Of a stretch of DNA of 42,216 nucleotides, positions 36,259-42,216 are shown piece after piece. The position numbers and the translations under genes were made by a program. Position 1 is the stretch's first letter; each line of letters opens with the position of its first letter. The stretch spans positions 1-42,216 of the forward strand of contig JADCEN010000075.1 of NCBI GenBank assembly GCA_020250175.1. The letters run 5' to 3'. This DNA comes from Rhodobacter sp. GTDB lineage: Bacteria; Pseudomonadota; Alphaproteobacteria; Rhodobacterales; Rhodobacteraceae. The notes under the pieces are model-generated. The model did not search any database. It was not told the DNA's origin and was given only the letters and a program-made list of their open reading frames with translations.

Positions 36259-37599
36259 TCACGCGGAGGGTTCGGGTAGGGTTTCAGGTTCGGTCGGGGT
36301 TTCGGCCAGCCGCTCGGCCTTCACGCCCGCGAAGTTCCGTCCATCGCCGTCGAGGATTGCCTCCCGGCCGGTGTCGGCTTGCCAGCGTTCGACGGCCACA
36401 TCGATGTAGGCCGGGCTGATCTCCATCGCAAAGACGCGGCGGCCATTGGCCTCGCCCGCCATGATTTGCGACCCGGATCCGCAGAACGGCTCGTAGCAGA
36501 GTCCACCCCGCGCCACATGCTGGCGCATCGGGATACCGAAGGCATCGAGCGGTTTCGGCGTCGGGTGGTCGGGTCGCTCGTCTTTTGCAAAGCTGGGCAA
36601 CGCCCATGTCGATGGCAGGGTTTCCTCGGCCACCTTGGGCGGACGGTTCGGGCGGCGCCAACCCATGAAGCAGGGCTCGTGCTTCCACAGGTAGTGCGAC
36701 CGGGTCAGAACCCCGCGGTCCTTCACCCAAATGATCTGCTGATGCACGAAGGCCCCAGCCTTTTCCCAGCAGGCTTCGATCATCGCCTGGCGGCGCGACG
36801 CGTGCCAGCAGTACCAGGCGGCATCTTCGCCGATGGCCTCCGCCACGGCGGCGGCGATAAAGCCGTCGTAGAGTTCCGCCCCCTGCGAACTGTCGTCCCA
36901 AGTCGTGCCATAGGACGCCGACCAGTCCTTGTTGCGGGTCGGATGGTTCGAGCCGTCATAGTCCACAAGATACGGCGGGTCGGTCGCGAACAGGATCGCC
37001 CGCTCGCCATTCATCAGGCGGCGCACATCGGCCGCGCTGGTGCTGTCGCCGCACAGCAGCCGGTGGTCGCCGAGGATCCAGAGATCGCCGGTCCGCGAGG
37101 CCGGATTGCGCGGGGGTTCGGGGATGGTCACCGGCGGCACTGAGCCCCCGGCGCCACCTTCTTGCTCGTCCCCTTCCGGAACAAAGGCCAGCAACTTGTC
37201 CAACTCGCCGTCCGAAAAGCCGACCAGTGACAGGTCGAAATCCTCGGCCAGAAGCGTGTTCAGTTCGGCCGAGAGCAACGCCTCGTCCCAGGTGCCAAGC
37301 TCGGTCAGCTTGTTGTCGGCGATCCGATAGGCCCGGCGTTGGGTTTCGGTCAGGTGCCCAAGCACGATAACCGGCGCTTCGGTCAGCCCTAGTTGGGTGG
37401 CGGCGAGAACCCGGCCATGGCCCGCGATCAACTCGCCGTCCTCGGCCACGAGGCACGGCACGGTCCAGCCGAACTCGGCCATGCTGGCGGCGATCTTCGC
37501 CACCTGGTCCGCGCCATGCGCCTTGGCGTTACGTGCGTAGGGCTGGAGCTTCGCCAGCGGCCACATCTCGATCCGATCCGGGGCAAAGCTCAGCGTCAT
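36259..37599 (-). CDS. ParB-domain / DNA adenine or N4-cytosine methyltransferase fusion
   Basis: 446 residues. The N-terminal ParB-like nuclease/DNA-binding domain (about 10-110) has LQPYARNAKAHGADQVAKIA, GWTVPCLVAEDGELIAGHGR and YRIADNKLTELGTWD. The methylase follows with catalytic DPPY (207-210), then HPTPKP (345-350) and the SAM loop EPFCGSGSQ (370-378). This order marks a beta-class amino-methyltransferase. It is typical of alphaproteobacterial prophages. The start at 37599 (MTLSFAPDRIEMWP) has GAGGA upstream; an extension to 37707 runs through a palindrome and is not supported. It probably protects phage DNA. Confidence 0.92.
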   Translation of the reverse strand: MTLSFAPDRIEMWPLAKLQPYARNAKAHGADQVAKIAASMAEFGWTVPCLVAEDGELIAGHGRVLAATQLGLTEAPVIVLGHLTETQRRAYRIADNKLTELGTWDEALLSAELNTLLAEDFDLSLVGFSDGELDKLLAFVPEGDEQEGGAGGSVPPVTIPEPPRNPASRTGDLWILGDHRLLCGDSTSAADVRRLMNGERAILFATDPPYLVDYDGSNHPTRNKDWSASYGTTWDDSSQGAELYDGFIAAAVAEAIGEDAAWYCWHASRRQAMIEACWEKAGAFVHQQIIWVKDRGVLTRSHYLWKHEPCFMGWRRPNRPPKVAEETLPSTWALPSFAKDERPDHPTPKPLDAFGIPMRQHVARGGLCYEPFCGSGSQIMAGEANGRRVFAMEISPAYIDVAVERWQADTGREAILDGDGRNFAGVKAERLAETPTEPETLPEPSA

Positions 37600-37659
37600 C
37601 AGCGGGTCATTCCTCGGATCAAAGTGGATACCCTTGGCTTCCGGACTCCGGGGTCCAGA

Positions 37660-37681
37660 CTGGACTCCACGTGGAGTCCAG
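37660..37681. promoter_or_regulatory. Perfect 22-base palindrome upstream of ParB-methylase
   Basis: CTGGACTCCAC (37660-37670) is followed directly by its reverse complement GTGGAGTCCAG. It lies about 60-80 bases upstream of the methylase start, where a repressor or anti-restriction operator would lie. GGACTCC also occurs just before it (37642-37648), and further partial repeats (GGTCC, GTGTCC) flank it. Confidence 0.5.
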
Positions 37682-38064
37682 CAGCCACCAGGGGTGTCCA
37701 GCTTCAAGGGTTTGAATTTGCAGTGTTTCAGGCGGGTTCAGGCGGCGGTGGCTTCCGGGTGGCTTCCCAAAAATCCGGCCCTGTCGCTAGCGATGTGCCG
37801 CGCTTCGCCCGCCAGCATATGAATATGGCCCGGAAGGAACCGGAAACTCGCCGGGGCTGAACCCCGACCGGACTCTGGAAGCCAGCGGGGGTATCCACCT
37901 CGGGATCAGCCCCGCTTTGCCCGAGCGCACGACCCCGAGTATATCGGCATGGATAGCTTCAGAAAGGCGATCCGTCTCGCCTTGCGATGTCTCGCCCCAA
38001 ATTGTGTCACATAGCCGCACAATCTTGACGTCGCAAAAAAGCCTTCCGCCACTCGCTCTCAACG

Positions 38065-38093
38065 TTGACGCTGCTTCGATACACAGTTAATCC
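38065..38093 (+). promoter_or_regulatory. Candidate promoter of RNA-RT cassette
   Basis: TTGACG (38065-38070) followed after 17 bases by TAATCC (38088-38093). The -35 is close to consensus, the -10 weak. Transcription would start near 38100, just ahead of the first arm of the candidate RNA (38118). A second TTGACG at 38025-38030 has no good -10. Confidence 0.35.
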
Positions 38094-38117
38094 TTTACGT
38101 ACTGGCGTAGTAGCCGA

Positions 38118-38249
38118 GGCGGCGAGGGCAAAATACCGGGCGACCATGTTGCCGATGGCGTGCAAATCTCCTGTCCGAGACAGCAGAGATAAGTGCGACG
38201 ATGGGATCGATCTTCTTGTCGGACTCCCTGACTCTCCGCCCTCGCCGCC
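38118..38249 (+). ncRNA. Candidate structured RNA upstream of reverse transcriptase
   Basis: GGCGGCGAGGGC (38118-38129) is exactly complementary to GCCCTCGCCGCC (38238-38249), which ends 19 bases before the RT start. The 108 bases enclosed contain a good hairpin, ATCTC-CTGTC / GACAG-CA-GAGAT with a CGA loop (38166-38190). Another possible stem is CGAC/GTCG (38196-38221) around GATCGATC. No reading frame covers it. RT-based defence systems (retrons, DRT2, DRT9) keep a template RNA in exactly this place. That this RNA is the RT's template is inference. Confidence 0.55.
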
Positions 38250-38268
38250 GACCTAGCCGAGAACTTTG

Positions 38269-39816
38269 ATGCAGAACGCGATTAAAGCTGAAATCAAGAG
38301 ACTTGCGAAGCGAGCGTTTGAAAAGGAAGAGAAGTCGAAGAAGCTCGAAGAGCAGTATCAGCAGCGCTTCACAAAGCGTACAGGGCTTCCACCAGGTCCC
38401 TCTTCGAAGAAGCCGAAGACTCCGATTTTAAAGCACTTTGACCCGAAATACTGTTCCAGAAATGCGAACTTCCTTGCCAAAACCGTTTGGCATAAAGTCC
38501 TAAACAACTGCTACGAGCCCATTCCAGCAGTCTGCTACAAGATACCCAAACCCGACGGCACCAAGCGCGAGGTGATGGCTTTCGCGATCCCCGACGCCGC
38601 GTTGGCCAACGTGGTACTCCGTCGGGCTCGTGGCAGAAACTTGAAGCGTCTCTCTCCTGCATCCTTCGCGTATCATCCAGACAAGAACGTTTTCGACGCG
38701 ATTCTCGCCCTCCGAGAGTTCGACCACGGCGGAAAGCTTTTTGCTGTCCAGATCGATTTCGAGAAGTACTTCGACAATATACCCGCAGGCTACCTCAAGG
38801 GCAAAATTGCTGACTCGGGGCAAGTCAGCCTTACGCCACATGAGCGGCACATTTTTGATCGTTTCATGCACCACCAGTTTGCGGAGCACGACAAGTATGG
38901 AACGGGGAATTTTCAGCGCCGGTACAAGGGCACGCCGCAGGGATCATCCGTGTCACTGCTCTTGGCGAATCTTGCCAACCACGACCTCGACGTTGAATTG
39001 ACTGCAGCGGCCGGGCGGTTTGTTCGGTTTGCAGATGACGTCGTCGCCCTTTGTTCCGACTATGCCCAGGCGCAGTTGATCGAGAAGTGTTTCTTCGATC
39101 ACTGCAGGATCAGTGGCCTCAAGGTGAACTCCGACAAGTCGCCCGGTATTGCTGTGATCTCCGGGAAATCGCAGGAAGTCAGGACACTCCCTCACTTCGA
39201 TTACCTTGGCTATCGGTTCGCGCCGGGTGGACTGACTGTTCCGGAAAAGACCATCAACCGGCTGAAGGCCCGCGTTTCGCGACTGTCGAACATCTATCTC
39301 ATCCATTATCTGAGCGCAGGTTTCGACAAGAGTAGATGCAGCACCAGTGCTCCCGTTTATGACTGGGATCTGCTTGGATTGATCTATGAATTGCGACGCT
39401 CGCTCTACGGCGGGCTCTCGGAAGCAGAGATCGATGCCTTTATCCACCAAGGGAAGCGCCTTCCAAAAATGAAGGGCTTGATGGGTTTCTATTGCTTGCT
39501 CGACGACCCTGCTCCTTTGAAGCAGATAGATGGCTGGATCTTGAGCATGGTTCGTCGTGCCACCAGAAAGCGAAATGACATCCTTTCATCGAAGTACGGG
39601 GTGAACTGCCCCAAGCCTTCAAATCGACAACTCGCAACGGGAGAATGGTTGGATCCAGTAGCATGGAGGGGTGATCCGAAGCCGGAGGCGAGAATACCCA
39701 GCCTGGTTCGCGGCTGGCGCGCCGCGAGAAAACACTTTTACACGTTCGGCCTCGAGAATGTTGAAGCACCAAATTACGGCTTCTACTCCGATCTTGACGA
39801 CATCTTCGACTACTAA
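38269..39816 (+). CDS. Reverse transcriptase, UG/DRT-like (candidate phage-defence RT)
   Basis: 515 residues from the ATG at 38269 (a TTG one codon earlier is possible). The RT palm is clear: motif A QIDFEKYFDN (catalytic Asp163), motif B GTPQGSSVSL with LLANLANHDLD (from 221), motif C RFADDVVAL (Asp256, Asp257), and motif E region FDYLGYRF (about 309-317). The N-terminal 60 residues are Lys-rich. About 190 residues after the palm are an unassigned, helical, basic domain. SSVSL replaces the GGxxSP of group II introns. There is no maturase, HNH, or retron VTG/NAxxH signature. It lies on the opposite strand to phage genes, with lower GC, so it is cargo. Subclass not assigned. Confidence 0.85.
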   Translation: MQNAIKAEIKRLAKRAFEKEEKSKKLEEQYQQRFTKRTGLPPGPSSKKPKTPILKHFDPKYCSRNANFLAKTVWHKVLNNCYEPIPAVCYKIPKPDGTKREVMAFAIPDAALANVVLRRARGRNLKRLSPASFAYHPDKNVFDAILALREFDHGGKLFAVQIDFEKYFDNIPAGYLKGKIADSGQVSLTPHERHIFDRFMHHQFAEHDKYGTGNFQRRYKGTPQGSSVSLLLANLANHDLDVELTAAAGRFVRFADDVVALCSDYAQAQLIEKCFFDHCRISGLKVNSDKSPGIAVISGKSQEVRTLPHFDYLGYRFAPGGLTVPEKTINRLKARVSRLSNIYLIHYLSAGFDKSRCSTSAPVYDWDLLGLIYELRRSLYGGLSEAEIDAFIHQGKRLPKMKGLMGFYCLLDDPAPLKQIDGWILSMVRRATRKRNDILSSKYGVNCPKPSNRQLATGEWLDPVAWRGDPKPEARIPSLVRGWRAARKHFYTFGLENVEAPNYGFYSDLDDIFDY

Positions 39817-39832
39817 GGCTGGAGCAACGGCG

Positions 39833-39847
39833 ACCGAACCTATCGGT
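39833..39847. terminator. Small hairpin between convergent RT and DUF6362 genes
   Basis: ACCGA (39833-39837) and TCGGT (39843-39847), 5-base loop, followed by TTA on the plus strand. It overlaps the end of the DUF6362 gene. It is a weak candidate terminator for the RT cassette. Confidence 0.3.
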
Positions 39848-40268
39848 TTAGAGCACGATCAACCACATGCGCCATTGACCTCTTCGACGGCACCCGCCTC
39901 CCATCCAGTCGCCAGATGATGACTGCGATGCCGTACTGCCAGCGCCTGTTCGCGGTGGCACGGCTAATGCCCAGCTCCCAGCAGATCGGCTTCCAGGGCT
40001 TTAGGTTCGCCCGCAGCCAGAGCAGGCGTGCGTCAGCTGGATCGAGCCAGCGCAGCCACAAGAGCGCATCGTCGGCTTGGGTGATGTCGCGTGGGCCGGG
40101 CTTCGGCCGTCGCATCCGTGGTTCCTGGCCGACCTGATCGGCGAAGCTGTGGAAATACTCGGGCCAAGCGTTGAAATATCCCTGCGGCTTCACCTCGGGG
40201 AGCGACCGGAACACGTCTGCGGCACGTTCGAGCCGGTCCTCGACCATGGCAGGCGTCCACTCAGCCAT
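39840..40268 (-). CDS. DUF6362-family phage protein
   Basis: 142 residues from the ATG at 40268 (MAEWTPAMVEDRLERAADVF). Family pattern: RSLPEVKPQGYFNAWPEYFH, ITQADDALLWLRWLDPADAR, LLWLRANLKPWKPICWELGI, then SRATANRRWQYGIAVIIWRL. The last part is a helix-turn-helix. It is probably a DNA-binding phage protein, often found before terminase or methylase genes in alphaproteobacterial prophages. It overlaps the preceding small gene by 8 bases. The RT cassette separates it from the ParB-methylase. Confidence 0.85.
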   Translation of the reverse strand: MAEWTPAMVEDRLERAADVFRSLPEVKPQGYFNAWPEYFHSFADQVGQEPRMRRPKPGPRDITQADDALLWLRWLDPADARLLWLRANLKPWKPICWELGISRATANRRWQYGIAVIIWRLDGRRVPSKRSMAHVVDRALNR

Positions 40269-40461
40269 TTGCGACCTCACGTTCGGCCATGCGCGGCCCA
40301 TAGAACTTTTCCCCCAGCTGACGCACCAGTTCGCGCTCGGGCCAGGTGAGGCGCGGATCGTCGGCAGAAATCGCCAGCAGACCCTGTTCCTGCCACCCAT
40401 CTCGCTTGACCTGCTCGGGATCCCGTCGTTGGCCGCCGTAGCCCTTTGGATGCCACCTCAT
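40261..40461 (-). CDS. Small conserved phage protein of unknown function
   Basis: 66 residues (MRWHPKGYGGQRRDPEQVKR), basic at the N-terminus and helical at the end (LTWPERELVRQLGEKFYGPR). Start and stop overlap its neighbours (RuvC-like upstream by 4 bases, DUF6362 downstream by 8), showing a coupled operon. No domain recognised; the same three-gene order is familiar from Rhodobacterales prophages. Confidence 0.72.
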   Translation of the reverse strand: MRWHPKGYGGQRRDPEQVKRDGWQEQGLLAISADDPRLTWPERELVRQLGEKFYGPRMAEREVANG

Positions 40462-41618: not shown

Positions 41619-42107
41619 ATGACTGATCAATCCAAGGCCCTTCCGGCCAACCCCGAAATTGCAAAGGCGCAGGCGAAGCGCCTTAGGACGGCTCTCGCAC
41701 CCGATCACGTGATCGGACACAGCCAAGCCCTTGAAGTCATCGCCCGCATCCATGGGGAGCAAAGTTGGGGGCGATTGAACTCGCTGCTCAATGGATCTGC
41801 CAACGTCGCTCCTCCCTTAGGTGCAGACGTCCCGAATGTATCCCCAAAGGCACCGGGACCGAAAGCTTCTCCCGATAACCATGTCGAGCAGCGCGTCTTG
41901 CAAGCACTTTGGCACGGTCTCAAACGCGCTCGTGACACTCAGGTGTCTCCCAAAACGCTCGCGAAGACCAAGGAGCTGCAGAAGGACGAAATCATCGCAA
42001 CTGTCGCGATTGAAGGGTGGCTTGATACGCTCGATGTGGCCCTCGGCGGAATGATTTTCGATATGGGAACTGAGAACTTAGATTCCAACTTCAAGTGCAA
42101 CGGTTGA
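41619..42107 (+). CDS. Glyoxalase-superfamily-type small protein, 3' end altered by IS30
   Basis: 162 residues. The N-terminal block AKAQAKRLRTALAPDHVIGH, SQALEVIARIHGEQSWGRLN matches the KAQAKRLR...HSQALE..A..HG...W..L module of small plasmid and phage proteins annotated as glyoxalase-superfamily. No enzyme site is visible in it. A polar linker (about 60-90) and a helical unit (about 92-145: NHVEQRVLQALWHGLKRARD) follow. The last ~12 codons (from about 42072) lie within sequence that is also the 3' end of an IS30-type transposase. The natural C-terminus was probably lost by that insertion. Confidence 0.65.
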   Translation: MTDQSKALPANPEIAKAQAKRLRTALAPDHVIGHSQALEVIARIHGEQSWGRLNSLLNGSANVAPPLGADVPNVSPKAPGPKASPDNHVEQRVLQALWHGLKRARDTQVSPKTLAKTKELQKDEIIATVAIEGWLDTLDVALGGMIFDMGTENLDSNFKCNG

Positions 42108-42216
42108 TTTGAAGGCCGCGATTTCTTCGGCCATGGCTTCTGCGGGGGTTCTCCAGCCGAGGGTTTTCCTGGGGCGGTTGTTCAACAGGGCTGCGACATC
42201 GTTGAGCCAGGTCTGG
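42078..42216 (-). CDS. IS30-family transposase, C-terminal end (runs off right edge)
   Basis: Read from the right edge on the minus strand: QTWLNDVAALLNNRPRKTLG, then WRTPAEAMAEEIAAF, KSTVALEVGI and a stop at 42078. The NxRPRKTLGWxTPAE block is the hallmark end of IS30-family DDE transposases. The rest lies outside the window. The element's terminal repeat should lie just left of 42078; its exact border was not determined. Confidence 0.85.
   Translation of the reverse strand, partial: QTWLNDVAALLNNRPRKTLGWRTPAEAMAEEIAAFKSTVALEVGI

Follow-up and report, generated by a model that had tools for sequence, protein, structure and literature searches.

The window analysed here, meaning the whole stretch of 42,216 nucleotides of a Rhodobacter sp. 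contig (JADCEN010000075.1), is a prophage, as judged from the terminase, portal, head, tape measure, and tail genes detected by a PHROGs scan. It carries an uninterrupted open reading frame (ORF) with an ATG start (38269..39816, plus strand; a TTG lies one codon ahead at 38266), which encodes a reverse transcriptase (RT) of 515 amino acids, and directly upstream of this gene a conserved structured non-coding RNA (ncRNA; core at 38100..38249, plus strand). The RT is a member of the DRT9/UG28 lineage. The template of four consecutive U (U4) of published DRT9 systems is missing from the window RNA, and this is the new feature.

In a preliminary description of this DNA, the RT was considered to fit no known family and to carry an unassigned C-terminal domain of 190 residues. 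Instead, the PADLOC Drt9 model covered residues 1-506 with 516.8 bits, the runner-up family reaching 101.6 bits, and both this model and DRT9 structures matched the C-terminal domain as thumb plus C-terminal extension. The protein is thus a full-length UG28-type RT, and a new RT family is ruled out. An N-terminal extension helix was observed at residues 2-38 of the predicted model, which aligns from residue 1 to DRT9 chains. The catalytic aspartates listed in that description (D163, D256, and D257) were invariant across 14 aligned sequences, and the SSVSL motif B was seen within PQGSSVSL; the catalytic motif is FADD, against YADD in E. coli DRT9. Its exclusion of group II introns and retrons also held in comparisons with profile models, used in place of a tree with those RTs: TIGR04416 gave 116.5 bits against a cut-off of 300, the best retron RT model 34.8 bits against 235, and the window contained no Rfam match at the gathering threshold. 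The identity of a DRT10/UG17 RT was rejected with 76.9 bits, against 516.8 for Drt9.

The columns of Y496 and Y498 of E. coli DRT9 (EcDRT9) are both Tyr in the window RT, and in the alignment of branch and deep relatives Tyr is kept in 9 of 10 and 8 of 10 sequences, respectively. By homology to the EcDRT9 pair (PMC12489045), Y503, Y506, and Y515 in the C-terminal tail (39775..39813, plus strand) are candidate priming tyrosines. In contrast, E. coli DRT9 has a Tyr at position 25 that stacks on U121 of the template loop; in this column, Tyr is found in four of four canonical RTs and in none of the 10 branch and deep relatives, and the window RT has Ser.

The ncRNA was matched by the covariance model at 38100-38270. 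Its layout, all on the plus strand, starts with the hairpin SL1 (GGC-GUAGUA-GCC, 38103..38116), mostly invariant and with little covariation in the consensus structure, followed by the 5' strand of the closing helix (GGCGGCGAGGGC, 38118..38129), two more stem-loops, SL5 (38199..38221; consensus pairing of 38199-38205 with 38215-38221), a loop of 16 bases (GACUCCCUGACUCUCC, 38222..38237) and the 3' strand of the closing helix (GCCCTCGCCGCC, 38238..38249). The closing helix of 12 pairs is exact and ends 19 bases before the ATG, just as had been noticed from the letters. The position of the loop, immediately 3' of SL5, suggests that it serves as the template. G-U pairs make up three of the seven pairs of SL5 in the window, where the minimum-energy fold shifts the pairing.

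The consensus structure of 39 pairs was obtained from aligned upstream regions of 11 loci. In an alignment of 18 sequences, 93.3% of the cells pair, two-sided changes occur in 26 of the 39 pairs (16.6 expected by shuffling and 11-16 when slid), and the covariation score is 0.584, against 0.243 and 0.10-0.12 in controls; this alignment was fitted to the covariance model and so favors the structure, 11 of the 18 being in the model and seven outside. The window RNA folds with -68.4 kcal/mol (z = -3.04), and none of 200 shuffles was equally stable. The ncRNA model found one place in the window's genome. The upstream region therefore co-varies in structure, which had been put forward as a check, and neither a lack of a conserved upstream RNA nor a lack of linkage to defense genes was seen. 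Just 5' of the RNA, a TTGACG and a TAATCC separated by 17 nt (38065..38093, plus strand) were recognized by eye only as a possible promoter; the pair was not listed in a consensus scan.

In E. coli DRT9, U4 within an irregular loop after SL5 is the template for poly-dA (PMC12483538, PMC12489045). It is called conserved in PMC12489045 and "universally" so in PMC12483538, where the model of 201 systems was seeded on Salmonella DRT9. The E. coli DRT9 locus in our set (L060) fits the numbering of PMC12489045 (C94, G114, U121, and U124-127), and UUUU was found in all five canonical loci with upstream sequence (L060, L044, L071, L045, and L047); L072 was not counted because its upstream sequence is missing. 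None of the 18 template loops in the branch to which the window belongs, as excised mechanically from the alignment, contains U4, and the window loop has GACUCCCUGACUC instead. CCCU(G/U)ACU is present in 16 of the 18 loops, CCC in 17 and ACU in 17, with L023 (carrying CCCAUAACU) and L020 (with neither CCC nor ACU) as the exceptions; CCC is more constant than the bases preceding it. The loop GACUCCCUGACUCUCC is common to the window, L001, and L008, and the other distinct loops, 12 in all, are GACUCCCUGACUCUAA, GAAUCCCUGACUCUCA, GAAUCCCUGACUAUUA, GACACCCUGACUUUCU, GACACCCUUACUUAGC, GAGUCCCUGACUCUUA, GAAACCCUUACUUUAA, UUUCCCCUUACUCUAU, GCUUCCCUUACUCUUA, GACUCCCAUAACUCAAA, and GACGUAUGAUUAGAUUAG. 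A deep relative outside the 18 (L024, RT 33% identical) has CCCUGACU upstream too. No DRT9 with another template was found in the open papers searched or in commentary and review passages.

If the loop is the template, poly-dA cannot come from it. Another U run as the source was rejected, since no run of at least four U exists anywhere in the window RNA; such runs occur in 5 of 19 RNAs, always outside the loop. An ordinary DRT9 that makes poly-dA as do the E. coli and Salmonella systems would agree with the shared RT lineage and fold, the kept tyrosines, and the similar RNA layout, but is improbable in view of the missing U4 and of the Salmonella system (SenDRT9), in which replacement of U4 by A4, C4, or G4 abolished defense and A4 turned the main product to poly-dT (PMC12483538). 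As judged from its sequence, with neither U4 nor Tyr25, the window RT is not the poly-dA DRT9 as published. Its product probably differs and is G-rich.

The branch loop and the U4 loop are taken to be homologous in position from their layout, their spacing, and the ACU motif. By helix search, 7 nt separate the 4-mer before ACU from the closing helix in the window, and 10 of the 18 branch loci in all have this distance; the spacing is 6 nt in three, 11 nt in four (the outer helix part being counted), and 1 nt in one, for which a different helix won. The 4-mers of L020 and L023 were set by hand in this search. In canonical loci, the distances are 8, 13, 7, 2, and 9 nt.

The window loop contains a direct repeat, GACUC-CCU-GACUC (38222-38234), which begins at the base of the consensus SL5. 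Class 2 UG RTs recopy a confined loop, namely U4 in DRT9, ACACAC in DRT3a, and A-B-A' in DRT10 (PMC12632851, PMC13174585); in DRT10, the template comes just after a stable stem-loop, and A' re-anneals the nascent DNA (PMC12632851). Comparison of the first five bases of the 12 distinct loops with the bases 8 positions downstream gave identity in 53% of cases, against 10-32% for other offsets. The run of five at period 8 in the window had p = 0.007 and the sum across the loops p = 0.032; a wider repeat test on 13 loops gave p = 0.007 for the sum and p = 0.06 for the window. As the test was devised after the repeat had been seen and the loops are related, these p values are optimistic. A period-8 match of at least two leading bases was found in six of the 12 loops (window type, L046, L003, L017, L012, and L010), and A and A' of L003 and L010 differ at the third base. 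The loop of a Zymomonas relative (L020:4868-5000) has GAUUAGAUUAG, with 5 bases repeated in tandem (p = 0.007 in the wider repeat test).

The product best predicted from these loops is a G-rich tandem repeat, (AGGGAGTC)n, with moderate support. We tentatively propose that a DRT9 branch with a non-U template may write G-rich, telomere-like repeats by DRT10-like realignment on the template, (AGGGAGTC)n in the case of the window, and GGG in each repeat could allow formation of G-quadruplex. The main rival is a homopolymer chemistry on C, in which slippage on CCC would yield poly-dG. CCC sits where canonical RNAs carry the U tract, and its constancy in the branch fits this idea, but the tract is only three C long, the 5-base repeat of the window is left unexplained, and in SenDRT9 a C4 template failed to co-purify with the RT, and no dCTP polymerization was seen with G4 (PMC12483538); we consider slippage unlikely. 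It is more doubtful still that the RNA is only a scaffold, that a longer stretch is copied as in DRT2, or that synthesis is untemplated: such modes are known from DRT2 and Abi RTs (PMC12483538, PMC12632851), but this RT is far nearer to DRT9 than to DRT2, and unpaired invariant bases were found inside the loop in the alignment of 11 sequences, as expected of a template or a contact site.

Several observations weigh against this reading of the loop. Period 8 does not fit in six of the 12 distinct loops (L011, L059, L013 type, L054, L023, and L020), and 18-base windows elsewhere in these RNAs often hold repeats of 4-5 bases. In its minimum-energy fold, the window RNA departs from the consensus and engages five of the 16 loop bases (38222 and 38225-38228) in pairs with 38203-38207. 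Only 10 of the 18 branch loci show a spacing of exactly 7 nt, and three of the five canonical loci fall within 7-9 nt. When canonical and branch RNAs were aligned by sequence alone, U4 and the branch loop were not brought into register; with the branch RNA model, no match at E up to 1 was obtained in the six canonical loci or in L021, L024, L048, and L057. In the RT model, the tail of 503-515 is of low confidence, so that a position of it near the active site is tentative.

Under the proposed mechanism, a DRT9 (UG28)-lineage prophage system would consist of one RT, possibly acting as an oligomer like the hexamer of published DRT9, and an upstream ncRNA that binds the RT and supplies the template. 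The RT would prime DNA from its C-terminal tyrosines, as expected from homology to DRT9, and repeatedly copy the loop that separates SL5 from the 3' strand of the closing helix; the product DNA would then drive abortive infection. Because the repeat test was post hoc, the loops are related, and the window RNA has its own fold, our confidence was lowered, leaving the G-rich repeat by template realignment a possibility on the weaker side. The whole explanation, a prophage anti-phage system of DRT9 lineage with a non-U4 loop template and most likely a G-containing repeat product, we hold with somewhat better than even confidence. If true, DRT9 is not bound to poly-dA: the RT scaffold, the RNA scaffold, and protein priming stay, and the written DNA changes. 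Whether defense needs a homopolymer or merely long DNA would become testable, DRT9 would be linked to DRT10 and telomerase-like repeat addition, and a naturally re-templated RT would be on offer.

The RT lies in a cargo slot (36259-40400) between a ParB-like/DNA methyltransferase gene (36259..37707, minus strand) and a phrog_6836 gene (39840..40400, minus strand), and both edges are the same in L001 and L008. A relative of phrog_6836 was present in 126 IMG/VR loci, and in the 80 best of these (L083-L162) the slot was empty in 27 (gap of 289-556 bases), filled in 38, and not scorable in 15. The largest ORFs of the filled slots formed 20 groups. PADLOC matched five of ten slot-cargo representatives (PD-T7-1, DarG, BstA, SoFic, and dGTPase), the other five being without a match; in L089, DarG has a DarT next to it, and L115 encodes a PIN protein. 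Other cargo was DUF3800, EamA, nitronate monooxygenase, or without Pfam match, and DRT9 occupied two of the 38 filled slots. The slot thus often harbors defense cargo, of many unrelated kinds, which supports a defense role of the RT cassette. A non-defensive role in lysogeny control or for another need of the phage might be expected from the prophage location and the same place in L001 and L008. This is highly improbable, since the slot is only a gap in 27 of 65 scorable relatives, known defense genes occupy others, and all characterized UG RTs are implicated in defense (PMC12632851). The RT cassette is likely a prophage-borne anti-phage defense system. Of the defense system envisaged in the preliminary description, its UG/DRT type with upstream structured RNA, the prophage cargo position, and the likely role stood, and its novelty as an RT family did not; what is new lies inside the RNA. 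The slot proteins without a match are candidate defense genes by themselves. At the window edge (42107-42216, minus strand) lies what we take to be the end of an insertion-sequence transposase.

Related loci were found in IMG/VR (five) and on genome contigs (17), the latter including Rhodovulum imhoffii (93%), Gemmobacter, Ruegeria, Sandarakinorhabdus, Mesorhizobium, Zymomonas, and Bradyrhizobium; the window's branch is mainly alphaproteobacterial. RT matches at E <= 1e-40 were detected in 11 of 394 genomes of the family, 5 of 292 of the order, and 2 of 385 of the class, the window's own genome being included. The phages collection had no place covering 80% of the RT query, with four partial matches at 24-27% identity, and two plasmid records had at least 80% cover. 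Further scans of viral contigs added nothing, and another gave only contigs already in the set. Outgroup searches in 150 genomes each were positive in one genome for Drt2 and in none for UG17, the latter search matching nowhere at all and hence showing no absence. The RT tree has long outgroup branches, leaving its root and the order of the main groups unsure; UG28 has been split into UG28 and UG28b (PMC8934634). RT frames look interrupted behind three of the 18 RNAs, with 371 amino acids to the first stop in L017, 298 in L020, and a break near the start, judged by eye, in L018. In two related metagenome genomes (L015:4900-5080 and L019:4900-5040), the ncRNA lacks its 3' half with the template loop, the RT lacks its first codons, and the RNA joins the RT frame directly, by decay or assembly error. 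A Thioclava plasmid (L048:3830-5960) carries a diverged DRT9-like RT with an annotated SLATT gene directly 3' and a different loop in the upstream region.

Compared with known systems, group II intron RTs and retrons share the RT core with the window, with scores below the curated cut-offs. DRT3a likewise belongs to the class 2 RTs and copies a short loop (ACACAC) at a like position (PMC13174585), but the match is weaker (54.4 bits; 5e-5), and no second RT like that of the window was found, the window's genome having one place for the RT query at E <= 0.001. DRT10 (UG17) may resemble the window in the direct repeat of an A-B-A' loop directly after a stem-loop, following the rule in PMC12632851; it differs in that the window RT is not UG17, in the period-8 misfits described above, and in the flanking genes, ParB-like/methyltransferase and phrog_6836 by the PHROGs scan, with no search aimed at SLATT. 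From DRT9 (UG28) of E. coli and Salmonella, the window differs by an identity of 27-30%, the lack of U4 and of Tyr at EcDRT9 position 25, FADD in place of YADD, some 15 additional residues ahead of motif B, a longer C-tail, and a spacer between RNA and RT in which no terminator-like hairpin was found. It agrees with DRT9 in the full-length RT with long N-terminal helix, thumb/C-terminal extension, catalytic aspartates, and C-terminal tyrosines, and in a cis ncRNA immediately upstream that has a closing helix and, ahead of the 3' strand of this helix, a loop.
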